Assembly (NCBI RefSeq): GCF_041821085.1 | Contig: NZ_JBGUAZ010000010.1 | Coordinates: 1 to 64,000, forward strand | Reading direction: 5' to 3' | Length of the DNA stretch: 64,000 bases | From: Natrinema sp. HArc-T2 | GTDB lineage: Archaea > Halobacteriota > Halobacteria > Halobacteriales > Natrialbaceae | In this document: positions 7,188-28,438 of the stretch, piece after piece | How positions within the stretch are numbered: position 1 is the stretch's first letter | How the letters are laid out: every line of letters starts with the position of its first letter | The notes under the pieces: generated by a model | What the model saw: the letters and a program-made list of their open reading frames with translations, nothing else | The model's database searches: none | What the model was told of the DNA's origin: nothing | Position numbers and translations under genes: made by a program

Positions 7188-10100
7188 TCAGTCGTCGGAA
7201 GCGGCGCCATCACGACGTGCCCTGACGGCTGGCGCTTGAAGCACCTCGGCGTCGGTCTCCGAACCAAGCGGTGTGACGCGGACACTCGTGACCTTGTACT
7301 CAGGGATGCCCGACTGTGGATCGAACGTCTCCTGTGTGAGCGTGTTGACCGCGCCGGCGGCGAAGTGCATCGGGATGAACAGCGTTCCCGCGTCGACGCG
7401 ATCGGTGAGCTGTGCTCTGACTACGATCTCACCGCGTCGGGACTCAACGTGAACGTAGTCCCCGTCGTCGATCTCGAGGCGATCAGCCAGGTGCGGATGG
7501 ATTTCGACGAAACTCTCGCCGACGTGGCTCATGAGCCCTTCGACACGGCGGGTGAGCTGGCCAGTGTGCCAGTGATAGAGGACCCGACCCGACGTGAGTG
7601 TGAGTGGGTACTCCTCATCTGGAATCTCTCCAGGTTGCCCGCTGTCTGCCGGGACGAATCGGGCGCGCCCATCGTCGAAGTTGAAGTTACCCTCCTCGTA
7701 GTCGTACAGATACGGCGTCCCGGGGTGGTCATCGGTCGGACAGGGCCACTGAAGCCCGTGTTGGTCGCCTGCCTCGAGGCGCTCGTAGCTGACGCCGCCG
7801 TAGATCGTCGTCACGTCACTGATCTCGGCCATTATCTCCCGGGGGTGGTCGTAGCTCCAGTCGTATCCCAGACGGTTCGCTAACTCCTGAGTGATCTCCC
7901 AGTCCTGGCGGGCGTTTCCAGGCGGGGTAGCCGTCGGGCGAACACGCTGGATACGACGTTCCGTGTTGGTGAACGTGCCGTGTTTCTCCGGTGATGTGGC
8001 TGCAGGGAGGATTACGTCCGCGTGCTCTGCCGTCTCGGTCATGAAGATGTCCTGGACGACGAGGAAGTCAAGCGCCTCGAGAGCCTCGCGAGCGTGTTCG
8101 ATGTCGGGTTCGGAGAGGGCGGGGTTCTCGCCGACGATATACATGCCCCGCAGATTGCCTTCGTGGGCCTCGCTGAACATCTCGGGCACTTTGAGCCCAG
8201 GTTCGGCGGGTGGCTGCTCGCCCCACGCGTCCGCGAATTTTGCCTGCACGTCCTCGTCGGCTGGATCCTGATAGCCGGGCAGACTGCCGGGGAGCGTCCC
8301 CATGTCGCCGCCACCGCCCTGCACGTTGTTCTGGCCGCGGAACGGGGAAAGGCCAGCCCCCGGTTTTCCGAGCTGACCCAGCACGAGCGCGAGGTTTGCA
8401 AGCGCGAGGATGTTCTGCGTGCCGTGACTGGACTGAGTCATGCCCATTGCCCAGCCGAAGACGACGGTATCGGCCGCAGCGAGGGTTTCGGCGGCCGACT
8501 CAAGATCGGCTGCCGGGACACCGGCAACCTCCTCGACCCGTTCGGGTGTGTACGGTTGGACCTTCTCACGGAGGTCGTCGAAACCGGTGGTATTGCGCTC
8601 GATGAACGCCTCGTCGTGGAGGTCGTGTTCGATGATGTACCGAATCAGTCCGTTGATCCAGGCCACGTCGTAGCCCGGTTTGGTTCGAGTGTACTGGTCG
8701 GCGTGTTCGGCGATGCCGATCCTTCGCGGATCGAACACCATCAGGTCGGCACCGTCACGGACGTTCTGTTTGATGCGCGTTGCCAGCACCGGGTGGCTCT
8801 CGGTCGTGTTCGAGCCAGTGATGAGGTAGGCGTCTGCCTCGCCGACATCTTCGTTGATGCGGTTTGTCATCGCACCGTAGCCAAGCGTCTGCTGGAGGGC
8901 CGCGACCGTCGACGAGTGACAGAGACGCGCGCAGTTGTCGATGTTCTTCGTCCCTAGGACCTGCCGGGCGAACTTCTGGACGAGATACGCCTCCTCGTTC
9001 GTTCCCTTCGACGACGCGAGACAACTGACCGCGTCGACGCCGTGTTCGTCCTGTATCTCACGAAGGTTCTCTGCGACGTACTCGAGGGCCTCGTCCCACG
9101 AGACGGGCTCGAATTCGCCGGAGCCGGTTCGGACGAGCGGTTCCGTAAGTCGTTTGTCGCTGTTTGCGAACTCGTGGCCGAACTTTCCTTTGACGCAGGT
9201 CGAGAAATTGTTTGCGGGTGCTGCGGACGGCTCGTCGACCGGCTCGACGCCGATCGTGTCGCCGTCTTTCCCCCACATCTCGAAGCGACAGCCGACTGCA
9301 CAGAACCCACACGTCGTTTCGGCAGTGTCGATCCTGTCGAGGCGCACGTCGCTGACGAAATCGGCGATATCGAAGAGTCGCCCTTCGGGAAGTGTGTTCA
9401 TCGCGATGCTCTCGGCGGTGTGTTCGCCGGCGACGATCGCTTTCCGACCGTACTCGCTTGCCAGTTGCGCCGCACGGTTCTTGGCGCTCTCCATGAAGCG
9501 TGCGACTCTCGCCTCCTCGTTGCTGTCGGTGTCGGTCGCGTCGGAGGAATCGGCGCAACCGGGATCGGGAGGCCGATTGGGTGCGGACGTCTCGTCGAGC
9601 GTTTCGACGGCGTCGGTTTCGATGACCTTCCCGATCGAGTTGCGCTGAGTGAATCCCGGAAGCGGCAGCGTACCGGCACCGCCGATTCCCTTTTCGGTGA
9701 GTGCGCCGGTCGGACAGACCGTCGCACAGTGTCCACAGGAGACACAGTCCGACTCGGCCATCGTCTCTGCGTCCGACTGGAAGCCGATCCGGGTGTCCTC
9801 GCCGTGGCCCTCGATCCGGAGGACGCCCTCGACCTGGACGTCGTTACAGCCCTCGACACAGCGGTTACAGAGAATACACTTGTTGCGATCGATCTGGATG
9901 AACGACGAGGTGTCGTCGAGCGGTTCGTACTCGTCGCGGTCCGCGAAGACACCATAGCGTGGGTGATCGACACCCTCGCTGATCGCGGCGTCTTGCAGTT
10001 CACACCGACCGTTTCCGTTACAGGTCGTACAGCGGAGGTTGTGATTCGAGAGGACGAGATCCAGGTTGACGCTCCGGCTCTCCGCGGCGTCCGGCGTGTC

Positions 10101-10514
10101 GGTTTTGACCGTCAGTCCCTCCTCTGCGGGGAACGAACAGGACGGAACGAGGCCGTGTTCCTCGGTTTCGACCATACAGGTCCGACACTCGCTTCGCGGC
10201 CCGATCTTGTCACTCGCGTCGCCATCCCGATCGTAGTGACACAGCGCGGGCACGTCGGCGTCGTCCTCGAGGCCGTCGGCACCGTGCTGGACGGTTACCG
10301 TCTCGTCATCGACAGCGTCCATCGCGTCGATGACGGTCGAGTCTGGCGGAACGGTGACCGTCGTCCCATTAATCGAGAGGGTCGTTGGATGGTCGCCGGC
10401 TGTGCCGACAGGCGGGTCGTTCGCAGTGCCGGTCTCGAAGTCGGCTGTCACTGGCGTCTGTTCCTGTGTGTCGTCGATCGCCGGTACGTGCGGCAGTGGC
10501 TCGTCTGTACTCAT
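7188..10514 (-). CDS. fdhF: Formate dehydrogenase-like molybdopterin catalytic subunit
   Basis: A 1108-residue iron-sulfur/molybdenum (or tungsten) oxidoreductase predicted to oxidise formate to CO2. In order it has: an N-terminal [2Fe-2S] domain (PALCHY, SECRTCMVE, VPSCSFP, about residues 90-125); a His/Cys cluster region (LRCTTCNGNGRCELQ); two [4Fe-4S] ferredoxin motifs (CILCNRCVEGC and CVSCGHCATVC); an Asp/Glu-rich linker of roughly 100 residues; the Mo-bisPGD domain opening TTCGFCAVGCRFE; and the active-site region NIDNCARLCHSSTV, where Cys replaces selenocysteine. The C-terminal domain (LTSGRVLYHWHTGQLTRR) binds the cofactor. The ATG at 10514 overlaps the upstream stop codon as ATGA, which favours it over the ATG at 10544. 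The two genes form one operon with the NuoF-like subunit, implying electron transfer to NAD(H) or another carrier. Confidence 0.9.
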   Translation of the reverse strand: MSTDEPLPHVPAIDDTQEQTPVTADFETGTANDPPVGTAGDHPTTLSINGTTVTVPPDSTVIDAMDAVDDETVTVQHGADGLEDDADVPALCHYDRDGDASDKIGPRSECRTCMVETEEHGLVPSCSFPAEEGLTVKTDTPDAAESRSVNLDLVLSNHNLRCTTCNGNGRCELQDAAISEGVDHPRYGVFADRDEYEPLDDTSSFIQIDRNKCILCNRCVEGCNDVQVEGVLRIEGHGEDTRIGFQSDAETMAESDCVSCGHCATVCPTGALTEKGIGGAGTLPLPGFTQRNSIGKVIETDAVETLDETSAPNRPPDPGCADSSDATDTDSNEEARVARFMESAKNRAAQLASEYGRKAIVAGEHTAESIAMNTLPEGRLFDIADFVSDVRLDRIDTAETTCGFCAVGCRFEMWGKDGDTIGVEPVDEPSAAPANNFSTCVKGKFGHEFANSDKRLTEPLVRTGSGEFEPVSWDEALEYVAENLREIQDEHGVDAVSCLASSKGTNEEAYLVQKFARQVLGTKNIDNCARLCHSSTVAALQQTLGYGAMTNRINEDVGEADAYLITGSNTTESHPVLATRIKQNVRDGADLMVFDPRRIGIAEHADQYTRTKPGYDVAWINGLIRYIIEHDLHDEAFIERNTTGFDDLREKVQPYTPERVEEVAGVPAADLESAAETLAAADTVVFGWAMGMTQSSHGTQNILALANLALVLGQLGKPGAGLSPFRGQNNVQGGGGDMGTLPGSLPGYQDPADEDVQAKFADAWGEQPPAEPGLKVPEMFSEAHEGNLRGMYIVGENPALSEPDIEHAREALEALDFLVVQDIFMTETAEHADVILPAATSPEKHGTFTNTERRIQRVRPTATPPGNARQDWEITQELANRLGYDWSYDHPREIMAEISDVTTIYGGVSYERLEAGDQHGLQWPCPTDDHPGTPYLYDYEEGNFNFDDGRARFVPADSGQPGEIPDEEYPLTLTSGRVLYHWHTGQLTRRVEGLMSHVGESFVEIHPHLADRLEIDDGDYVHVESRRGEIVVRAQLTDRVDAGTLFIPMHFAAGAVNTLTQETFDPQSGIPEYKVTSVRVTPLGSETDAEVLQAPAVRARRDGAASDD

Positions 10515-12037
10515 AGTTGGGTCGAACACGTTCCGCTCGGACACTGTCCATCAGCGTGAACGCGAAATTCCGGTTCGAATTCGTCTATCGCCGTTACCAC
10601 GGGCCGCGGTGCATATTCTCCGATCTGGCAATTACTCGAGCGAGTCATGACCCGCCCCAGTTCACGGATATCATCGCTTCTGAACGAGCCCTGGTAGAGT
10701 TCGCGAAGCAGTTCGGTGAGCTGTTTCGTTCCTTCTCGTCCCGGAACGCATCGACCGCTGTTCGCTTGGGAGGCAAAGCGCGCTCGCTCGCCGGCGGTCG
10801 CGACCGCACAGCGGTCGTCGTTCAACAGTTCGACAACGCCGTCCGTTCCGAGACCAGCAGCGGTAAGCGACTGTGCGGTCGGGGCGAGATCCAGTTCGGT
10901 CGTTATGCCACCGAAGACGCCGCCGACACACGCCATTTTGAACGAACCGTCCATCGAGACGGCATCGCGAGCCACCGCGAGTTCCGTCCCGGCGTCTAGT
11001 TCGACGACCGCCGGCACGTCGACATCGCCAGTGACGGTCACGAGCCGTGTCCCCGGATCCGGCGCGTCCGCGTCGAACGACGGTGGGGACCGCATCGCTC
11101 GCTGGAGCTGTGCGACCGTCCGGGGCGTGTGTACGACCGTCGGACGACCGTAGAGGCCGTATTGGGCCGGCGTCGGCGGTTGCAGACGCGGCTCGATCCG
11201 ATCTGCCCCTTCCATCGCCTCGAGCGCGGCCGTCGGCGACCCAGCGCGGTACTCGTCGGGGCCGGCGACGACATCTGGGACGACGGGCAACACGTCTTTG
11301 ACCGCGTCGACGGCCTGTCTGACGTGTTGCTGCAGTGCCGTCTCGCGCTCGTTCAGGTAGATCACTGCGTCCTCGGCACCGACGAACGACGCGACCGCCG
11401 CGACGCCATCGAGGACCGCGATCGGTGCGCTGGCGAGCAGCGTCCGGTCTGCCTGCTGGCGGTCGTCAGTCTCGTGTGCGTTGACGACGACGACGGGATC
11501 ACCGTCGGTGTCACGAGCCGTCGTCCATGCGTTGGCAGCGGGCTGGTCCGCGACGGCGTCTCCCCTGCCGCGGGCGAGTACCCCCGTCTGTGCGGCGACA
11601 CTCACATCTTGTTGCTCGGTCGAACAAAGCGCGTAGTCGGCCGGCTCAAGTGGATCGATCCAGCCACACGGGCCGAGGACGCGTCGGTGGCCGACGGACA
11701 GCGGACCGGTTTCCGGAACCGGGAGCGACGGCGTATCCGGGTCGTGTTCGACGACCGCATCGGCGTGGGACGTCGGGAACGTTCCTGATTCCAGTTCGGT
11801 GGCGAGCTCACGTGCGTCGGACGACGACGCCGAGTAGAAGAAGGCGGTTCGTCCACCGTCGGTCGCGAGGACCAGCGGCTCGAGTTTTCTGCTGCCGGTC
11901 GGTCCTGTTCGGACGATTGGCACGGAATCCGTGGCATCGCGGGCAGCAGCGTAGACCCGATCGCCACGATCCGCCGTCACGTCCGCCGAGATGCGAACGA
12001 CCGGCGAGCGGTCAACGGTACCTGTAACATCCGTCAT
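10511..12037 (-). CDS. NuoF/FdhB-like partner subunit of formate dehydrogenase
   Basis: A 508-residue protein in an ATGA overlap with the catalytic subunit. The C-terminal third shows the NuoF plan: a SLBB-like region (TRLVTVTGDVDVPAVVELDA), an extended loop with FKMACVGGVFGGITTE, and the cluster-binding region SGRCVPGREGTKQLTELL followed by RSSNCQIGEYAPRPV. In typical NuoF the first motif is S-C-G-x-C-x-P-C-R-x-G, giving three cysteines plus one later. Here only one of the three and the later one remain, so a normal [4Fe-4S] cluster is doubtful. I also do not see the usual Gly-rich FMN-binding motif in the N-terminal half. The C-terminus carries a short CPSGTC motif. The family call is firm; the cofactor content is an open question. 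Confidence 0.75.
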   Translation of the reverse strand: MTDVTGTVDRSPVVRISADVTADRGDRVYAAARDATDSVPIVRTGPTGSRKLEPLVLATDGGRTAFFYSASSSDARELATELESGTFPTSHADAVVEHDPDTPSLPVPETGPLSVGHRRVLGPCGWIDPLEPADYALCSTEQQDVSVAAQTGVLARGRGDAVADQPAANAWTTARDTDGDPVVVVNAHETDDRQQADRTLLASAPIAVLDGVAAVASFVGAEDAVIYLNERETALQQHVRQAVDAVKDVLPVVPDVVAGPDEYRAGSPTAALEAMEGADRIEPRLQPPTPAQYGLYGRPTVVHTPRTVAQLQRAMRSPPSFDADAPDPGTRLVTVTGDVDVPAVVELDAGTELAVARDAVSMDGSFKMACVGGVFGGITTELDLAPTAQSLTAAGLGTDGVVELLNDDRCAVATAGERARFASQANSGRCVPGREGTKQLTELLRELYQGSFRSDDIRELGRVMTRSSNCQIGEYAPRPVVTAIDEFEPEFRVHADGQCPSGTCSTQL

Positions 12038-16492: not shown

Positions 16493-16740
16493 CGATACGA
16501 GGAACTCGCTCGTGTGAGCACTTTATATTGCCGGCTATCAGTCCGTGCTCATCCATTGCGACTCACGCGCGACCGACGTCTCCCCCACATTGTCCAAGAG
16601 AGTGATATTCAGTTGACACACTGGAAAACCGTGTATGGGGACGAAACGAGCGCGGCTGCAGTTAATTATGAATATAAAACATGTCCGATCGGATAGAGGG
16701 GGATTTTATTTGGAGGCATCCCCCATATCCGATATCAAGT

Positions 16741-17238
16741 ATGGCAGGAAAGTACATCACATCCGAAAGCAACTTACCGGAGAACCCCGAGGGGGAGGAG
16801 ATCCAATTACAGGTCAGTGATGAAGAAACGAAAGAAATTTTCACTATTCGGGCCAGAGTCGATCGAGAACCAGACAACCTTCTCGATCCCGACACCCTCA
16901 CTGTCGTGAAAGGCCCCCACGAGGACACTGAAGAGGAGTGGTACGTCGATGTTCTCGAGACTGACAGTGGAGAACCGATCGATACCGAACTTCTAGAGTC
17001 GACGATGAACGCGCTCGAGGACAAGTCAACCGTGATTAATACCCGGTCGAAGGAAGTGAAGACGCTCCTGCAATACCTCACGGAGAAAGGGGAGTACAAC
17101 TCCGTCTCAGAGGCAAGCCGGACGATTATGCTCGAGTATCTCTCCGAGGCCTACCCGGACCTCGTCAGTGAGTACATCGATCTCAAAGTGCAGTCTGAAC
17201 GAAGCGAGTTGGCTGACGAACTGCACGATCACCGATGA
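16741..17238 (+). CDS. Ribbon-helix-helix-like protein heading the UbiD operon
   Basis: A 165-residue acidic protein. Residues 1-85 form an unrecognised domain, probably beta-rich (EIQLQVSDEETKEIFTIRAR; EEEWYVDVLETDSGEP). Residues 105-150 (VKTLLQYLTEKGEYNSVSEA then SRTIMLEYLSEAYPDL) resemble a ribbon-helix-helix DNA-binding fold. The frame is open from 16681, but the ATG at 16741 follows a TATA-like TTTTATTT by about 35 bases and starts a more natural sequence. The stop overlaps the next ATG (ATGA), so it is translationally coupled to the UbiD gene. It could be an autoregulator of the operon or a small structural partner of the decarboxylase; the sequence cannot decide. Confidence 0.7.
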   Translation: MAGKYITSESNLPENPEGEEIQLQVSDEETKEIFTIRARVDREPDNLLDPDTLTVVKGPHEDTEEEWYVDVLETDSGEPIDTELLESTMNALEDKSTVINTRSKEVKTLLQYLTEKGEYNSVSEASRTIMLEYLSEAYPDLVSEYIDLKVQSERSELADELHDHR

Positions 17239-18731
17239 CGATCAGTAGTCTTCGGCAGTACATCCAGCGACTCGAGACACGAGATGAGTTACATCGAATC
17301 ACGGAACCGGTCTCATGGAATTTAGAGGCTAGTGCTGTCACGATGCTGTTAAACGAAGAAGACAGTAGCGTGCCACTGTTCGAAAACGTCGAGGCAGCGC
17401 GGCTCATCGGCGATCCGTATCGGGGATCACAGCGCAGGCCATGGGATCGAATCGCGCTCGGACTGGAATTACCGACAGACCTATCATATCGTGAATATTA
17501 TGAATCGGTTATCGAGCGGTTGAAAAATCCGGTCGAGCCTGTCACGGTCGCTGCCGATGACGCGCCGTGTAAGGATGTCATCCAGACGGGAGACGACGTT
17601 GACCTGTTGGATTTTCCCTGGCCGTACATTCACGCGGGTGACGGTGGCCGGTATTCGAATCTCCATACGCTTATTGCACCTGACCCAGACTCCGAGTGGG
17701 TCGACTGGTCGTACCACCGATCGATGATTCACGATAGCGAGACGGCCAGCGTGCTCTTGCTTGCGGGTGAACAGACGCCGAATATGTACTATTACAAGTA
17801 CGAGCGGCGAAACGAGCCGATGCCAGTCGCGATCGCCGTTGGCGTCGAACCTGCCGTTCAGTATGCGTCTGTCATGTGGATCCCGACGGGCCGGAACGAG
17901 GCGGAGTACGCGGGCGGGTTGAAACAGGGACCGGTTGAACTCGTTCCCTGTGAAACGAACGATCTCTTGGTTCCAGCGACGGCAGAACTTATCATTGAGG
18001 GTGAGATTCTTCCCGATGAACGGCGCGACGAAGGGCCGTTTGGCGACTATTTCGGGTATATGAATGGGCCCCGACGGTCGATGCCGCTGTTCCGAGTGAC
18101 GGGTATTACCCACCAGACGGATCCGATACTGCCGTTCTGTGTCGAAGGGGTCGGGGTCGGACATACGGAAAACACGACCAGTTCGATGGAGGTCGGCTGC
18201 GTCGGCCCGGACGCAACGCTCGGGCTTCGAACGGCCGGGTTCGACGTCGAATGCTGTGCACCGTGGAAATCGACGCCGAGAACGGTGTACGCGATCTCGA
18301 CCGAGAAAACCAACCCCAGCTATCTCCACGATATGGCGAACTTCATCTTCACGACATGGGGGATGCTCCACGTCGACTTCTTCATATTCGTCGATGCCGA
18401 CGTCAACCCGCTCGATCAGCGAGCAGTTCTCGAGGCGCTTGCGTTACATGCGGATCCGGATACGGACTTTCACCAGTTCGGTGTTGAAACGATGCCGAAA
18501 GTGCCGCTGAACATCTATCAAACGCCGACCGAGAAGGGCGACGTTCAGACTGGGACGTCGAAAGCAAAAACATCGAAAGCGTACATCGACGCGACGAGTA
18601 CGGAGTCCGAACGCGAGAGCCGCGATACCGACGACGTGGAGCGTAAATATCGGGCGCAAAAAATACTCAAACGAGCCGGTATCGAGTCGGAGACGTTCTC
18701 GTTTATTGAGCCAGGAGACTCAGCGCAATGA
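17235..18731 (+). CDS. UbiD-family (de)carboxylase
   Basis: A 498-residue member of the UbiD family, which uses prenylated FMN to decarboxylate aromatic or alpha,beta-unsaturated acids. Key landmarks are present: the front domain (VSWNLEASAVTMLLNEEDSS), the active-site Arg region WVDWSYHRSMIHD (Arg162) and the conserved acid block ELIIEGEILP (251-260) followed by EGPFGDYFGYM (266-276). The C-terminal domain includes VGHTENTTSSMEVGC and HVDFFIFVDADVNPLDQRAV. It overlaps the small upstream gene and the UbiD-like downstream gene by 4 bases each, so subunit stoichiometry is probably controlled. No UbiX prenyltransferase gene is present in the window, so the cofactor must be made elsewhere. The substrate is unknown; an aromatic acid fits the surroundings. 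Confidence 0.88.
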   Translation: MTISSLRQYIQRLETRDELHRITEPVSWNLEASAVTMLLNEEDSSVPLFENVEAARLIGDPYRGSQRRPWDRIALGLELPTDLSYREYYESVIERLKNPVEPVTVAADDAPCKDVIQTGDDVDLLDFPWPYIHAGDGGRYSNLHTLIAPDPDSEWVDWSYHRSMIHDSETASVLLLAGEQTPNMYYYKYERRNEPMPVAIAVGVEPAVQYASVMWIPTGRNEAEYAGGLKQGPVELVPCETNDLLVPATAELIIEGEILPDERRDEGPFGDYFGYMNGPRRSMPLFRVTGITHQTDPILPFCVEGVGVGHTENTTSSMEVGCVGPDATLGLRTAGFDVECCAPWKSTPRTVYAISTEKTNPSYLHDMANFIFTTWGMLHVDFFIFVDADVNPLDQRAVLEALALHADPDTDFHQFGVETMPKVPLNIYQTPTEKGDVQTGTSKAKTSKAYIDATSTESERESRDTDDVERKYRAQKILKRAGIESETFSFIEPGDSAQ

Positions 18732-20149
18732 CAGCAGTACGACAGCATCTTGATCGACTCAGCGAAACGGACGATCTGATCACCATTACGGAACACGTTC
18801 ACTGGGACGGCATGGTTGCCGAGGTCGCAAGCGAGGCGATACAGCATAACTGTCCCGTCACGCTGTTCGAGAACACATCCGGCGCAGTACGGCTTGCGAG
18901 TGGCGTTTACGGTGGTGCTGACCAGTTCGCCAGTAAAGACCAACAGCCGTGGCAACGAATTACGCAAGCACTTGACCTCGGTGCGGACTGTTCGTACAGC
19001 GAGTTGATCGAGCGGCTAGCACAGTGGAACTCGGCCAGCATCGACGATCAGTTCACCGATGAGGCGGAAGCGACAGTTCGTAACGATACTGACCTCTACG
19101 GCCTCGGTCTGCCGACGACCAGCGACGGAACGCCGCTCATGTCTCTCGGCCTTCTCGTCGTCGAGAAAGACGGCATCACGACCTGGGCACCGATCAAGGG
19201 ACAAGCCCAGCGAAGCAGAACGCTTCGAGTATCTGTTCCGAAAGCCTTCGCGGAGTGGTGTCCGCCACAGGCAGATGCAAGCGTCGTGCTCGGCGTCTCG
19301 GCTGCTCCACTTATTGCGGCGCTGCAGGGATGGACACAGGTACAGACGACGCCTGCCGTCCCGAAACTGGCAGCAGGATTGACAGACGTTTCCCTGACAT
19401 CGATCGGCTCGCGGACCGTTCCGGCAGACGCTGAGGTTCGCATCGACGGCCACATGAGCATCGGACCCGAGACCGAACCCGATGACAACGTAACAAAGGC
19501 AGCGTGGGAACTCGCGTGTGAGACCGAAACAATCACGATCGAAACCGACACGATTGCGCTCCGCGAGCAGCCGACCGTTCCGTTTACACCACTCGGTGAA
19601 CCGCTGACCGACGATCTCCACCTACTGTGTCTCGTCGAGACGGCGAAACTCTTTCGACGCGTCAACAATTACTGGGGTGCCTCACCAGTCGAATGGATCC
19701 AGATCCCGGTCGAAGGGCGGCTTGGCTTCTGTATCGTCTCGAGTGAAATTCTCTATGCGGGATTCGAGTGGCAACTGGCGAACACGCTCTTTTCGTTTTC
19801 CGATCTGTTCGACAAAGTACTCGTATTAGACGAACAGGCGGATCCGACGAATCTTGCTCGCTCGCTCGACGATATGTGGGTCAAAGCCCATCCTGCCAAC
19901 GACTGGACATTCAGCGAACCGAACGCCTCACGCGCAACCGCCCCCGTCTATCGTCCCGACGAGAACGGATCGCAGCTCTATATCAACGCCACGTGGGATC
20001 CACGATGGGACGAAGAGTACATCGCGCCCCGCGTTACCTTCGAGACGACGTTTTCGGAGAACGTACTCGAATCGATTGCCGACAGGTGGAACGAGTTGGG
20101 CCTTGGTGAACTCCTCGACAAGCAGGAAATTGGTGACGTCCATGAATGA
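18728..20149 (+). CDS. Divergent UbiD-like protein with altered active site
   Basis: A 473-residue protein sharing the UbiD plan with its upstream partner: a similar start (RQHLDRLSETDDLITITEHV against RQYIQRLETRDELHRITEPV) and a similar domain order. By eye alignment the active-site Arg is replaced by Lys (WAPIKGQAQ, Lys157). The acid block ELIIEGEIL becomes EVRIDGHMS (236-244), and the EGPFG motif is missing. It is therefore probably inactive as a decarboxylase. It may be a structural or regulatory subunit, as in multi-subunit UbiD-type enzymes such as phenylphosphate carboxylase. It is coupled by ATGA to the UbiD gene and by an 8-base overlap to the MBL gene. The fold assignment is likely; the role is inferred. 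Confidence 0.75.
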   Translation: MTAVRQHLDRLSETDDLITITEHVHWDGMVAEVASEAIQHNCPVTLFENTSGAVRLASGVYGGADQFASKDQQPWQRITQALDLGADCSYSELIERLAQWNSASIDDQFTDEAEATVRNDTDLYGLGLPTTSDGTPLMSLGLLVVEKDGITTWAPIKGQAQRSRTLRVSVPKAFAEWCPPQADASVVLGVSAAPLIAALQGWTQVQTTPAVPKLAAGLTDVSLTSIGSRTVPADAEVRIDGHMSIGPETEPDDNVTKAAWELACETETITIETDTIALREQPTVPFTPLGEPLTDDLHLLCLVETAKLFRRVNNYWGASPVEWIQIPVEGRLGFCIVSSEILYAGFEWQLANTLFSFSDLFDKVLVLDEQADPTNLARSLDDMWVKAHPANDWTFSEPNASRATAPVYRPDENGSQLYINATWDPRWDEEYIAPRVTFETTFSENVLESIADRWNELGLGELLDKQEIGDVHE

Positions 20150-21098
20150 TACTATCCGAATTCCGGTCGGCAACGGCTCGCCAGAAGGAACGAATAGCGC
20201 ATATGTCCTTCCGGACCGTGGCGTCGTCATTGACCCCGGGCCACCGTCCGAGGCGGCGTGGGACGCTCTTCGAGACGGGATTACTGACGCTGGCCTCGCA
20301 CTCGAGGACGTCGAACACGTCCTCGTCACCCATTGGCACATCGATCACGCCGGCCTGACAGCCCGGCTCGCAGACCGTGCGAACGCGACAGTACACGCCC
20401 ACCGGAACGATGCACCGTTGATCGGCGAGTACGCGACCGCTCGCCCACAGCGGCTTCGCCGTGACCGGCAGGTACTCGCGCAGTGGGGAGTGCCGGAATC
20501 GATCCGAACTGGCGTGCTGGATCGTGATACGCCGTCGCCGCTGCCCGACTCGTTCCCTGTCGTTCGACACGACGACGGCGAGACTATCGCCGGTGTCGAA
20601 CTCGTTCACACGCCCGGACATACGAGCGGGCACAGCTCGCTACGGACGAGCGACGCGGTATTCCTCGGTGATCTGTTGTTACCGACGTATACCCCGAACG
20701 TCGGCGGCAGCGATACGCGACTCGAGGATCCGCTTGGGCGCTACCTGTCGTCGCTTCACCGTCTCGACTCGGCCCCGAAAGACGGACTCCCGGGGCATGG
20801 AACGCCACTCGAGATCGCGACCGCGATCGACGAGGTGAAACGTCACCATCGAGAGCGAGCCAGAGCAGCCTTTCGTGCACTCGCGACGCCAGAGCCAGCG
20901 GCACAGACGCCGTGGGACGTCGCACAAGCGTTGTTCGGAGAGATGCGCGGTATCCACGCGAAATTCGGTGCAGGCGAGGCGACCGCACATCTGCAGCGGC
21001 TCGCCGAACTGGGGATCGTCGACCGTCTCGAGGGAACACCGACTCGCTATCGTCCGAGCGTTGACGCGTACCCAGCAGAGCTATCCTTGACACCGTAG
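20142..21098 (+). CDS. MBL-fold metallo-hydrolase
   Basis: A 318-residue metallo-beta-lactamase-fold hydrolase. The metal-binding signature HWHIDHAGLTARLADRAN (HxHxDH) is at about residues 64-82, the next His is in HTPGHTSGHSSLRTSD, the bridging Asp is in AVFLGDLLLP, and the last His is in GLPGHGTPLE. A C-terminal extension of about 90 residues (HHRERARAAFRALATPEPAA to the end, with LQRLAELGIVDRLEGTPTRY) looks like the winged-helix tail seen in some haloarchaeal and LACTB2-like MBL proteins. The ATG at 20142 overlaps the upstream stop by 8 bases; a GTG at 20133 is possible. As the last gene of the UbiD operon it may hydrolyse an ester or thioester of the pathway, which is inference. Confidence 0.85.
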   Translation: MNDTIRIPVGNGSPEGTNSAYVLPDRGVVIDPGPPSEAAWDALRDGITDAGLALEDVEHVLVTHWHIDHAGLTARLADRANATVHAHRNDAPLIGEYATARPQRLRRDRQVLAQWGVPESIRTGVLDRDTPSPLPDSFPVVRHDDGETIAGVELVHTPGHTSGHSSLRTSDAVFLGDLLLPTYTPNVGGSDTRLEDPLGRYLSSLHRLDSAPKDGLPGHGTPLEIATAIDEVKRHHRERARAAFRALATPEPAAQTPWDVAQALFGEMRGIHAKFGAGEATAHLQRLAELGIVDRLEGTPTRYRPSVDAYPAELSLTP

Positions 21099-22481: not shown

Positions 22482-23246
22482 TCAGTTCAGTGCGAACAGT
22501 TCGTTCTCCTCGCCTCGGATCTGTTTGAGTTCCGTCTCACTGATCGACCCGCTGTCAACTCGTCGTCGCGTTTCGTCCCACTCCTCGGACGCGGGTGCGT
22601 CCCAGTCGACAGCGTCGAGCGAGACAGCCGTGTCCGCGAACAGGTTCTGGTAGTGCTCGATGAACGACTCACGGATGTCGGCGATCGATCGATCCGTAAA
22701 GCCAGCCTCGAGCAGTGGATCCTCCGCGTCGTCGTATGCTGCCGGCCCGATGAAGGCCAGTGCCTGTGGCAGCGTCTTTTCGAGGGTCTGCTGGATCGTC
22801 TCGGGGTCCTCGTCAGCGAGGGTTTCGAGGCGCGCATCGTGATACTCGAGATGGAAGTACTCGTCTTCACCCATCTTGGTGATCAGGCCGTCCAGATCGT
22901 CCTGATCGATCGCGTCGAGCAGATACCATGCGGCGCGATCTGCGGGCGCAATCGAGGCGATGTACGAGGTCCACTCGCCATCGATCTGATCGATAGACGC
23001 GGCGTTTGCGAATTCGTCCGGGTCGCGCTGTCCTTTCAGCCAGTCGTCGTCGCGGCCCTGCGCTTCCAGTTCGTTGGCCAGTTGCCGGACGTGGCCGATT
23101 TCTTCCTGTGCAGCACTCGAGCCACCGATGTCGTCCTCGAGCGTAGGACCTGCGAGACTCCATTGGCCGTATCGGAAGCCGAGGACGAGTTTCGTGTCGT
23201 GGATCGCCTGCACGTAGTCGACCGCTTGGTCGGGCCAGTCACTCAT
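22482..23246 (-). CDS. paaC: PaaC-like structural subunit of the ring epoxidase
   Basis: A 254-residue ferritin-like helical protein matching PaaC in length (E. coli PaaC is 248 residues) and operon position. It starts WPDQAVDYVQAIHDTKLVLG and contains EEIGHVRQLANELEAQGRDD and EDEYFHLEYHDARLE, remnants of the diiron-carboxylate fold. PaaC is the non-catalytic partner that forms a heterodimer with PaaA in the phenylacetyl-CoA 1,2-epoxidase. Its start overlaps the end of the paaB-like gene by 8 bases. The C-terminal tail (SGSISETELKQIRGEENELF) extends beyond the helical core. The subunit identity is firm from context; the substrate of the complex is not settled. Confidence 0.85.
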   Translation of the reverse strand: MSDWPDQAVDYVQAIHDTKLVLGFRYGQWSLAGPTLEDDIGGSSAAQEEIGHVRQLANELEAQGRDDDWLKGQRDPDEFANAASIDQIDGEWTSYIASIAPADRAAWYLLDAIDQDDLDGLITKMGEDEYFHLEYHDARLETLADEDPETIQQTLEKTLPQALAFIGPAAYDDAEDPLLEAGFTDRSIADIRESFIEHYQNLFADTAVSLDAVDWDAPASEEWDETRRRVDSGSISETELKQIRGEENELFALN

Positions 23247-23451
23247 TGGGAGCCACCTCGGGCGTGGGTTGTGCGTCAGGATTTACTTCGTGGACGTCGT
23301 TCTCTCTGACGACAGCAAGGTAATCCCAGTCTTCTTCATCGAACGTATTGTGTGCGTACATCTGTGCGAGTTTGTCGCTCTGTGCGGTGACGTTACCGAT
23401 GTAGGTCGTCTGGTCACCGGCGTTGAGTCGTGCGAAGACTTCGTATTTCAT
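23239..23451 (-). CDS. paaB: PaaB-like small subunit of the ring epoxidase
   Basis: A 70-residue protein matching the PaaB/phenylacetyl-CoA-epoxidase small-subunit family. It opens MKYEVFARLNAGDQTTYIGN and continues LAQMYAHNTFDEEDWDYLAV, the short beta-alpha-beta pattern of PaaB. E. coli PaaB is about 95 residues, so this copy is slightly shorter, with a Pro/Glu-rich tail. PaaB is required for epoxidase activity and helps assemble PaaAC into its active form. It lies between the PaaD-like gene (9-base gap) and paaC (8-base overlap), an order of A-D-B-C that differs from the bacterial A-B-C-D-E. Confidence 0.85.
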   Translation of the reverse strand: MKYEVFARLNAGDQTTYIGNVTAQSDKLAQMYAHNTFDEEDWDYLAVVRENDVHEVNPDAQPTPEVAPNE

Positions 23452-23460
23452 TGGTCTGTG

Positions 23461-23853
23461 TTACAGGCTGATGCCTGCCTCGTGCATTTTTTTGCGAACC
23501 GATTCGGTGAGCATGTCCTTCGTCCAGACGGGATCCCAGACCACGTCGATCTCGACCTCGTCGACGCCGTCGATCACCGACAGACAGCTCCGGATATCGT
23601 TGTGGATCATGTCGTACGCCGGACAGCCCATGCAGGGGAAACTCATCTCGACGGTCACGTGTCCATCGTTGTTTCGGACGTCGTAGATCATCGCCATCTC
23701 GACGATGCTGACCGGGATGTGTGGATCGGGGATCTCGTCGATGATGTCCCAGAGTTCCCGCTCGAACGGCGTCGAGTCGGCGCGTCGCTGCTCGACGAAC
23801 TCACTAGTTTCGGACACGTCCGCTGTGCTGGTGTTTCGCTGTGCGCTTGACAT
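23461..23853 (-). CDS. paaD: PaaD N-terminal half (DUF59/MIP18 family)
   Basis: A 130-residue protein of the DUF59 (MIP18) family. The core reads LWDIIDEIPDPHIPVSIVEM, VTVEMSFPCMGCPAYDMI and VVWDPVWTKDMLTESVRKKM, which aligns well with the first two-thirds of E. coli PaaD (IPDPEIPV; DPAWTTDWM). It stops at HEAGISL, exactly where bacterial PaaD continues into a zinc ribbon. That ribbon is encoded separately at 22300-22476. The CMGC pair could bind a metal. It starts 1 base after the paaA stop, so translation is likely coupled. The role is inferred to be maturation of the epoxidase or its redox partner. Confidence 0.88.
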   Translation of the reverse strand: MSSAQRNTSTADVSETSEFVEQRRADSTPFERELWDIIDEIPDPHIPVSIVEMAMIYDVRNNDGHVTVEMSFPCMGCPAYDMIHNDIRSCLSVIDGVDEVEIDVVWDPVWTKDMLTESVRKKMHEAGISL

Positions 23854-23854
23854 G

Positions 23855-24775
23855 TTAGACCTCGACTTCGACGGTACCGGATTGGATCAGGTTGACGTAC
23901 TTCTCGTTGGCCGGTCCGCGACCGCGCCAGCGATCGATGACGTCGTCCCACGAGATCTGCTCGTCGTAGCGCCACTCCTTGTTGTCCGCGTCGAACGCGA
24001 TCGGCATGTCGTACTCGAGGACGTATTTCTCTTGCTCCTCGTCGTAGTGAGCTGGGACGTCGAGATCGAGTTCGGTCAGGAACGGCATCGATCGGCTGAG
24101 CCAGTCCTGTCGGAGCTCGTCGTTGGACTTACCCTTGATACGGTACTCGAGTTGTTCGTCGTGTTTCTTTTTGTCGTCCGGGAGGCCGAACCATTCGACG
24201 CCGATGGGGAACATCCAGTCGACGGCGTCCTGCAGCATCTCTCGGGTCTTTTCGCTGTTGTTTGCGAGGCGGCGCATCCACGTCTCGCCATGGCGGAGGT
24301 GGAACTGCTCTTCCTTGCTGACCTTCGTGAGCGCGCGTTTCCATGGCGCGTACGAGGTATTCTCGTGAACGTCGCCCAATAGAGTGATCCCTGCTCGGTC
24401 GAACAGGCCGTGTGCCGTCACGAGCTCTGCGAAGTTGTCGATGTGCTGGTCGAACCCGTAGGTGTTGCGGAACTCGTGGGGTTCGCGCCCGTAGATGAGC
24501 TCCTCACGGTCTTCGCCCAGGTCCTCGAGCAGGCGATAGGCGATGTGACCGTGGCCGAGCTCGTCCTGGATGACGCTGATACACGATGCGCGTGCGTCGA
24601 GCGACGGCGCGTTGAGCGACTGGTCGTAGTACGCGGGTGCGCTCATCAGTTCCGTATCGCCCGAGACCAGCAGGATCTGCTTGAGGGCCTTCTTGTACCC
24701 ATCAGTCATCTCCTCGGTCGATTCGATCATTCGCCCGTTCTGCAGCTCTTTTTTGAATTGCTTGTCTGTTGCCAT
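23855..24775 (-). CDS. paaA: PaaA-like catalytic subunit of a CoA-ester ring epoxidase
   Basis: A 306-residue diiron monooxygenase subunit, close to E. coli PaaA in length (309). The iron-binding motifs are intact: E-x2-H in SVIQDELGHGHIAYRLLEDL and SKEEQFHLRHGETWMRRLA. Other matches include SYAPWKRALTKVSKEE, NDELRQDWLSRSMPF and WDDVIDRWRGRGPANEKY. PaaABC epoxidises the ring of phenylacetyl-CoA with O2 and electrons from PaaE. Here the neighbouring ligase looks benzoate-like, so another aryl-CoA is possible. The gene heads the operon A-D-B-C-zinc ribbon. A TATA-like AATTATAT lies about 40 bases upstream, with a GTATAC-type operator just beyond it. Confidence 0.9.
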   Translation of the reverse strand: MATDKQFKKELQNGRMIESTEEMTDGYKKALKQILLVSGDTELMSAPAYYDQSLNAPSLDARASCISVIQDELGHGHIAYRLLEDLGEDREELIYGREPHEFRNTYGFDQHIDNFAELVTAHGLFDRAGITLLGDVHENTSYAPWKRALTKVSKEEQFHLRHGETWMRRLANNSEKTREMLQDAVDWMFPIGVEWFGLPDDKKKHDEQLEYRIKGKSNDELRQDWLSRSMPFLTELDLDVPAHYDEEQEKYVLEYDMPIAFDADNKEWRYDEQISWDDVIDRWRGRGPANEKYVNLIQSGTVEVEV

Positions 24776-26803: not shown

Positions 26804-28438
26804 TTAGCTGTGCTCTTGTTCCCGCAGTTCCGTCCGACGGATCTTTCCGGTCTCCGTCCGCGGAAGAGTCTCACAGAACTCGACCTTGCGCGGATACTTG
26901 TACGGCGCAAGGGTGTTCTTGACGTGGTTTTGGAGTTCCGAGACCAGTTCGTCACTACCGGAGACACCGTCGCTCAGGACGACGAACGCTTTCACGACTT
27001 CACCGCGTTGGTCGTCCGGACTGCCGACGACGGCGACCTCGGAGACCGATTCGTGTTCTTCGACAACTGCCTCAACTTCGGGTCCGGGGATGTTGTACCC
27101 ACTCGAGATAATGAGATCGTCGTCACGGGACTTGTACTCGAGTCGACCGTCCTCACGCTGGACGAAGATGTCGCCCGGAATCGACCAGCCGTCCTTGTTC
27201 GCCCCGATCTGTTTTTCAGGTCGGTCCCAGTATTCGATACCAGTTGGACCGCGAACCGCGAGGTGACCTGGTTCACCGCGTTCCAGCTCTTCGCCAGTGT
27301 TGGGATCGATGATCTTGCACTCGTATCCGGGGACCGGGTAGCCGGTCACGTTCGGATCGATCTCCTCATCGTGGCGGTGGCTGATGAAGATGTGCAGCAT
27401 TTCCGTCGTCCCGATCCCGTCAAGAATCTCGACCCCGTATTCGGATTTGAAATTCTCGAACGTCGTTGGAGTCAACGGCTCACCTGCACTGAGTCCGAGG
27501 CGAAGCGACGAGACATCGTATTCATCAGGCCCGTCCGGATGTCGTGAGAGGATCTGGTTGTATCCTGTTGGAATCGAACAGAAGACCGAGATGCCGTGAT
27601 TTTCGATCGCTTCCAGTAAGTCGCCAGGAGACGCATCTTCGACGAGACTCGTACTCGCACCGAACCGAAGCGGGAACGTCACGAGGTCACCGAATCCGTA
27701 CGCGAAGGGCAGCGGTGGGTTGCCACCAAAGACGTCGTCTTCCGTCGGCTCGATACAGTAGCGGGCATACGTATCTGCGGTGGCCAGCATGTTCCGATGG
27801 GTGTGAATTGCACCCTTTGGCCGCCCGGTCGTCCCGCTCGTATACAGCATCAACGCGAGATCGTCGCGCTCGGTCTCGTAGGCCTCGAGTTCGTCACTGG
27901 CGTCGTCGATCAGACCGTCGTAGCTGTGATAGCTGTGATCGATCCCGTTGCGTTCGGCAACGATGATGTCGTCGACGGTCTCGAGTTCGGGAAGCGCGTT
28001 CTCGATTTCGTCGAGGAGATCGTCGTAGACGACGACGGCTGACGCTTCGGCGTTGTTGATGATGTACTCGAGTTCTTTTGCTCGCAAGAGCTTCATCGAT
28101 GGGAGCGCGACCGCACCGATTTTCTGGGCTGCCAGACACGAGACGATCGCCTCTGGTCGATTGGGGAACCGGACGACGACCCGATCGCCGGCTTCGATAC
28201 CGAGGTCACGGAGCGCGTTCCCCATGCTGTTTACCTTCTGCTGGAGTTCCTCGTACGTGAGTGTCCGATCTTCGAAGTAGACCGCAACGTTGTCGCCGCG
28301 TCCCTCGCGGACGTGACGGTCGACCAGCTCGTCGGCCACGTTGATTTGCTGTGGATAGTGTGCTTCCGGTACCGCGTGGATGTACTCAGGGGTGTTCGAT
28401 TCGTCTGGAAGGTACCCCTCTGTGATACCATCTTGCAT
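26804..28438 (-). CDS. Benzoate/2-aminobenzoate-CoA-ligase-like AMP-forming acyl-CoA synthetase
   Basis: A 544-residue adenylate-forming ligase that would activate an aromatic acid with ATP and CoA. Motifs are complete: the P-loop LMLYTSGTTGRPKGAIHTHR, the acyl-pocket segment NPPLPFAYGFGDLVTFPLRF, the A5 region ILDGIGTTEMLHIF, the hinge region with DDDLIISSGYNIPGPEVE and the catalytic Lys in LPRTETGKIRRTEL. The pocket segment and length resemble the benzoate-/2-aminobenzoate-CoA ligase group rather than phenylacetate-CoA ligase (PaaK, about 430 residues). A TATA-like CTATATTA lies about 30 bases upstream. Together with paaA-D this suggests an aryl-CoA pathway; the true substrate needs assay. 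Confidence 0.85.
   Translation of the reverse strand: MQDGITEGYLPDESNTPEYIHAVPEAHYPQQINVADELVDRHVREGRGDNVAVYFEDRTLTYEELQQKVNSMGNALRDLGIEAGDRVVVRFPNRPEAIVSCLAAQKIGAVALPSMKLLRAKELEYIINNAEASAVVVYDDLLDEIENALPELETVDDIIVAERNGIDHSYHSYDGLIDDASDELEAYETERDDLALMLYTSGTTGRPKGAIHTHRNMLATADTYARYCIEPTEDDVFGGNPPLPFAYGFGDLVTFPLRFGASTSLVEDASPGDLLEAIENHGISVFCSIPTGYNQILSRHPDGPDEYDVSSLRLGLSAGEPLTPTTFENFKSEYGVEILDGIGTTEMLHIFISHRHDEEIDPNVTGYPVPGYECKIIDPNTGEELERGEPGHLAVRGPTGIEYWDRPEKQIGANKDGWSIPGDIFVQREDGRLEYKSRDDDLIISSGYNIPGPEVEAVVEEHESVSEVAVVGSPDDQRGEVVKAFVVLSDGVSGSDELVSELQNHVKNTLAPYKYPRKVEFCETLPRTETGKIRRTELREQEHS

Follow-up and report, generated by a model that had tools for sequence, protein, structure and literature searches.

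The window analyzed is a stretch of 64,000 nucleotides (contig NZ_JBGUAZ010000010.1) from the haloarchaeon Natrinema sp. HArc-T2, whose 3.73 Mb genome is 99.9% complete. Positions 16741-21098 hold four open reading frames on the forward strand, designated A to D, which overlap by 4 (A/B), 4 (B/C) and 8 bases (C/D). A preliminary description had placed four overlapping genes here, and the arrangement is confirmed. An in-frame ATG lies upstream of gene A at 16681, yet the orthologues begin at the ATG at 16741. The genes and their relevant neighbors are listed below.

16741..17238, + strand: gene A, 165 aa, a two-part small protein; relatives are annotated "hypothetical protein" or "ubiD operon protein"
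17235..18731, + strand: gene B, 498 aa, UbiD-family (de)carboxylase in which R162/E266/D271 are invariant
18728..20149, + strand: gene C, 473 aa, putative pseudo-subunit with a UbiD fold in which the catalytic triad is not conserved
20142..21098, + strand: gene D, 318 aa, metallo-beta-lactamase-fold hydrolase, accessory in the type I context only
22482..24775, - strand: divergent Paa-like acyl-CoA epoxidase genes (PaaC-, PaaB-, PaaD- and PaaA-like), conserved neighbors in type I loci
26804..28438, - strand: acyl-CoA synthetase of the benzoate-CoA-ligase family, above the family cut-off, in the same neighborhood

The conservation of the gene order was evaluated with two peptide motifs from C, which were searched for in 84,980 species, each represented by a single genome. 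The scan returned 55 loci, every one of them haloarchaeal; since only exact matches are found in this way, relatives outside Halobacteria may exist. A, B and C were adjacent and in the same order at 55 of 55 loci and in both sets carried by the source genome, mostly with overlaps of 4 bases, and A was always on the same strand, in first position and overlapping or adjacent to B. The second set of the source genome, A'-B'-C' (contig C5, L004, 7554-10951), is without D and shares 62% (B), 42% (A) and 41% (C) identity with the first. Among 242 species of Halobacteria, A and C are present in the identical 61 species, and the A-B-C order was found at 61 of 63 C loci. The two exceptions are a locus in genome G195 that is apparently split over contig ends and one B-C pair without an adjacent A in genome G213. 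In the latter genome, one of the two B-C pairs has a divergent A beside it, and a further full-length A stands alone at a distance of about 0.9 Mb. When the pairwise distance matrices of the three proteins are compared, they correlate with r values of 0.90-0.93. Thus, the synteny across archaeal genomes on which the preliminary description had staked its idea survived the adjacency check, and A-B-C is a fixed three-gene unit of haloarchaea.

The same cannot be said of gene D. The 57 loci fall into two contexts: type I, comprising 25 loci that form one clade in the B tree, and type II, comprising 32 loci. D is present in 21 of the 25 type I loci and in none of the 32 type II loci, indicating that it is an add-on to one pathway and that the core is A-B-C. 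The four-gene module proposed earlier was rejected on these grounds. The D protein itself matches Lactamase_B (PF00753, E=2.4e-19) and has the full metal motif H64 H66 D68 H69 H160 D177 H219, with the ligands conserved.

In type I loci, the surrounding genes encode PaaA-, PaaB-, PaaC- and PaaD-like proteins, enoyl-CoA hydratase, thiolase and CoA ligase. The Paa-like proteins resemble components of PaaABCDE but score well below the equivalog cut-offs (PaaA, 133.6 vs. 280 bits; PaaC, 47.6 vs. 133.35 bits), so that the cluster is better regarded as a divergent acyl-CoA epoxidase whose substrate need not be phenylacetate and, judging from these sequence scores, probably differs from that of PaaABCDE. 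Some type I haloarchaea carry, besides the divergent Paa-like genes, a canonical Paa cluster at another place in their genomes. In type II loci, A-B-C is followed by genes for a CoA ligase, acyl-CoA dehydrogenase, biotin carboxylase, carboxyltransferase and MaoC hydratase. The aromatic-CoA neighborhood noted previously in the window is supported. The accompanying suggestion of an aromatic acid substrate fared less well: the type II operon has no aromatic-ring genes, so that an aromatic substrate cannot be assumed.

Gene B encodes a protein that scores above the cut-off for all three UbiD Pfam domains, UbiD_N (PF20695), the Rift-related PF01977 (E=4.7e-68) and UbiD_C (PF20696), and its closest matches in the PDB are HudA and Fdc1. 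Alignment with canonical UbiDs showed that R162, E266 and D271 are the equivalents of Fdc1 R173, E277 and E282, and that R, E and D occupy these positions in 57 of 57 loci. Of the metal-ligand positions, two are changed. The Glu corresponding to Fdc1 E233 is present in 57/57 sequences, whereas Asn at the N168 position is found in 1/57 and the H191 position is Gln in 57/57. The possibility was considered that the changed Mn2+ ligands prove B incapable of binding prenyl-FMN (prFMN). This argument was dropped because the H191 equivalent is also absent from most UbiX-associated haloarchaeal UbiDs, and in HudA, which is established as a prFMN enzyme, the alignment points to Ser at the N168 position. 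Given this variation among UbiX-associated proteins, the changes at N168 and H191 in B cannot decide the cofactor.

The C polypeptide, in turn, exceeds the cut-off for UbiD_N and UbiD_C only, and not for PF01977. The positions equivalent to Fdc1 R173, E277 and E282 are variable (H/R/Y; D/E/T/S; R/K/P) and none is conserved. The AlphaFold model of C (pLDDT 81) nevertheless superimposes on HmfF with a Z score of 37.1 and 3.0 A over 358 residues, that is, a complete UbiD fold. C also retains the Glu equivalent to Fdc1 E233 in 54 of 56 sequences, a feature of the sequence that makes ligand binding of some kind possible and counts against the reading favored below. The contrast between the intact triad of B and the lost triad of C, with the fold kept, indicates that the module pairs a catalytic UbiD chain with a non-catalytic one, in agreement with the earlier view of a catalytic UbiD paired with an apparently inactive UbiD-like protein. 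In Halogranum amylolyticum (L019, 8001-10637), the C reading frame is 879 aa long compared to the usual ~460, either a fusion or a missed stop.

Gene A encodes a protein of 18-19 kDa with no cysteines. No match above the cut-off was found in Pfam or among curated families, and the subunit models of phenylphosphate and phenylphosphoamidate carboxylase gave none at E values up to 1. The predicted structure (pLDDT 83, pTM 0.50) has two parts. The N-terminal domain, residues 1-75, is five-stranded and includes the invariant residues Y5, T7 and GPHE 58-61. A flavin-binding LOV/PAS fold is not claimed for this domain, as the Z score was only ~2.3 over ~50 residues. The helical C-terminal part (approximately residues 97-137) matches the archaeal ribbon-helix-helix (RHH) protein SegB with a Z score of 6.6 over 73 residues, a value in the range that unrelated folds also reach. 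The sequence contains an RHH-type motif, INTRS...S-x-SEA-x-R, in which an N-x-R strand is followed by S-x-SEA-x-R, the pattern of DNA-binding RHH proteins such as Arc. The earlier designation of A as RHH-like fares better by fold than by sequence searches, where similarity was limited to a weak match to ParD (E=1). On the model and the motif, the C-terminal half is probably RHH-like. Dyads that might serve as an operator upstream of A, apparent by eye in two relatives, were not above chance (3/9 vs. a shuffle mean of 2.3, p 0.41).

The distribution of UbiX, a point absent from the preliminary description, was unexpected in light of the literature, where UbiX is described as an obligate requirement common to all UbiDs (PMC8379154) and a single conserved flavin prenyltransferase is spoken of (PMC10865409). 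The UbiX model TIGR00421 gave no match in the source genome, even at E<=10, and the PF02441 flavoprotein family gave one, a 399-aa protein. In Haloferax volcanii, the UbiX model gave a match at the loose setting of E<=10 but none at E<=0.001. Searches for UbiX, the UbiD domains, C and A were extended to the 242 haloarchaeal species. UbiX was found in 17, UbiD domains in 78, C in 61 and A in the same 61. The 17 UbiX species and the 61 module species are disjoint and together make up all 78 UbiD-bearing species; in other words, UbiX is present in 0/61 module genomes vs. 17/17 UbiD-bearing genomes without the module. The probability of this non-overlap is 0.006 under independence, a figure that ignores the kinship of the species, so the argument rests on the all-or-none pattern and not on the p value. 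PF02441 was above the cut-off for exactly one protein in each of the 61 module genomes vs. two in 4/4 UbiX-bearing controls. In nearly all 61, the open frame is ~400 aa or longer and, judged by its length, the protein is apparently CoaBC. The 17 UbiX-bearing haloarchaea (L069-L078) have canonical UbiDs of several distinct subfamilies, most of them 1.4-2.7 kb from UbiX. UbiX is, then, missing from the source genome and from all sampled module species.

Several known systems share features with the module. In the UbiX-UbiD system (Fdc1, HudA, HmfF, E. coli UbiD), the enzyme likewise has all UbiD domains and the E-R-D triad, but the module differs in that the genome lacks UbiX and in the presence of A and of C, the obligate partner with a UbiD fold. 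Phenylphosphate and phenylphosphoamidate carboxylases also combine two UbiD-like subunits with one or more small proteins. However, B scored 167.4 and 111.1 bits against the phenylphosphate carboxylase alpha and beta equivalogs (cut-offs 564.6 and 468.95) and C scored lower; moreover, the module has no phosphatase subunit and the triad of C is lost. VdcBCD and LpdC/LpdD encode a small partner protein alongside UbiD. VdcD is under ~10 kDa and has a four-cysteine Zn site (PMC8379154), unlike the larger, cysteine-free A; there is no VdcB/UbiX and the VdcC model scored 189 vs. 650 bits. With scores so far under the cut-offs, membership of the phenylphosphate carboxylase or Vdc families was rejected. 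The naphthalene carboxylase clusters of N47 encode several UbiD-like subunits together (PMC12016498), but they occur in anaerobic bacteria and have four UbiD-like genes and other partners. No description of an A-B-C module was apparent in the open-licence literature, where papers on haloarchaeal and Haloferax UbiD were represented by their titles and abstract openings. The UbiD family and multi-UbiD complexes are known; a conserved A-B-C unit in organisms lacking UbiX is, to the extent covered by these searches, undescribed.

Taken together, the reading that we consider probable is that A-B-C constitutes a haloarchaeal UbiD-family (de)carboxylase that is independent of UbiX, in which B and C form a heteromeric enzyme and A is a regulator or an accessory subunit. 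B, with its UbiD fold and intact triad, would be the catalytic subunit, would probably hold the flavin and would carry out reversible decarboxylation. C would be a non-catalytic partner, most likely assembling with B into a hetero-oligomer that replaces the usual homo-oligomer, and translational coupling would provide A in near-equal amounts. The acid that the B-C enzyme would decarboxylate or carboxylate may be unsaturated or aromatic and feed into CoA-dependent catabolism, with the neighboring ligase converting either this acid or the product to a CoA thioester. In the type I context, D would likely act as a thioester or lactone hydrolase beside the divergent Paa-like epoxidase. In the type II context, the B-C step would lie upstream of the CoA ligase, acyl-CoA dehydrogenase, acyl-CoA carboxylase and MaoC hydratase. 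The cofactor would be either prenyl-FMN from an unrecognized source or plain FMN.

The intact triad of B favors prenyl-FMN chemistry, while the absence of UbiX demands another source of this cofactor or another flavin. The triad is also an argument against our own reading, since it suggests continued use of prFMN, a cofactor without a known source in these genomes. It could be that UbiX was merely overlooked in draft assemblies or, because remote homologues can escape a profile search, through divergence, and that these are ordinary UbiD enzymes. This null explanation is strongly disfavored and most improbable, as the 61 genomes are 94-100% complete, UbiX in the 17 related genomes is recognized at 177-227 bits and the whole PF02441 family yields one ~400-aa protein per module genome. 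We judge the chances to be even that this widespread archaeal UbiD branch has replaced UbiX, with A or another haloarchaeal gene serving as the prenyltransferase or in prFMN delivery, or with B-C operating without prenylated FMN. It is plausible, though less likely than not, that ordinary prFMN is made by a flavin prenyltransferase unrelated in sequence to UbiX, encoded by A or elsewhere, and that B is a normal prFMN decarboxylase. The invariance of the triad and the metal-ligand Glu in B, the lack of UbiX homologues and the strict co-inheritance of A, with its invariant residues outside the RHH part, are consistent with this explanation, but no flavin prenyltransferase other than UbiX is known and the N-terminal fold of A matches weakly (Z ~2.3). 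Operation on unprenylated FMN seems rather unlikely, although there is a precedent. The phenylphosphoamidate carboxylase of Desulfatiglans anilini, which has two UbiD-like subunits, was reported to be active with plain FMN (PMC7500099), and this keeps both cofactor options alive. That work is a single report on refolded proteins, and the altered N168 and H191 positions of B, which might otherwise point the same way, form a weak argument when H191 is missing from most UbiX-associated haloarchaeal UbiDs.

The role of A involves a similar choice. Within the favored reading, A would be an accessory protein of RHH type whose most likely function is autoregulation of the operon; the alternative is a role as a subunit or as a chaperone for the cofactor. 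The RHH-like fold of its C-terminal half and the N-x-R and S-x-SEA-x-R elements of the DNA-binding pattern are what a regulator would be expected to have. The invariant residues Y5, T7 and GPHE exceed the needs of a simple repressor and, like the non-significant outcome of the operator dyad search, speak against A as a mere regulator, and its first position in every locus and perfect co-occurrence with C (61/242 species) would suit a component of the enzyme. That A is instead a structural or maturation subunit of B-C, comparable to VdcD, LpdD or the phenylphosphate carboxylase gamma subunit, and not a DNA-binding regulator, is plausible, if somewhat short of an even prospect. An autoregulator or an accessory subunit is favored, and the data do not separate the two.

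With ~60 species that carry UbiD modules but lack UbiX, the obligate-UbiX rule (PMC8379154; PMC10865409) becomes directly testable. These species could bring to light another way of obtaining the UbiD cofactor, or UbiD chemistry without prFMN. They also offer candidate (de)carboxylases adapted to salt, and the hypothetical "ubiD operon" proteins form a defined set for assignment.

The module is frequently found on large plasmids, among them pHTUR01 and plasmids of Haladaptatus, Natrinema and Halorientalis (L081, L020, L023, L053, L082). In the window, it is adjoined by genes for a formate dehydrogenase alpha subunit (FdhF, above the TIGR01591 cut-off) and a NuoF-like protein at 7188-12037 on the reverse strand, and these neighbors recur on the Haloterrigena turkmenica plasmid pHTUR01. 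ARAGORN called a tRNA-Arg (CCG) at 11681-11767 on the forward strand. This call lies within the NuoF-like gene (10511-12037), in antisense orientation, and is probably a false positive.
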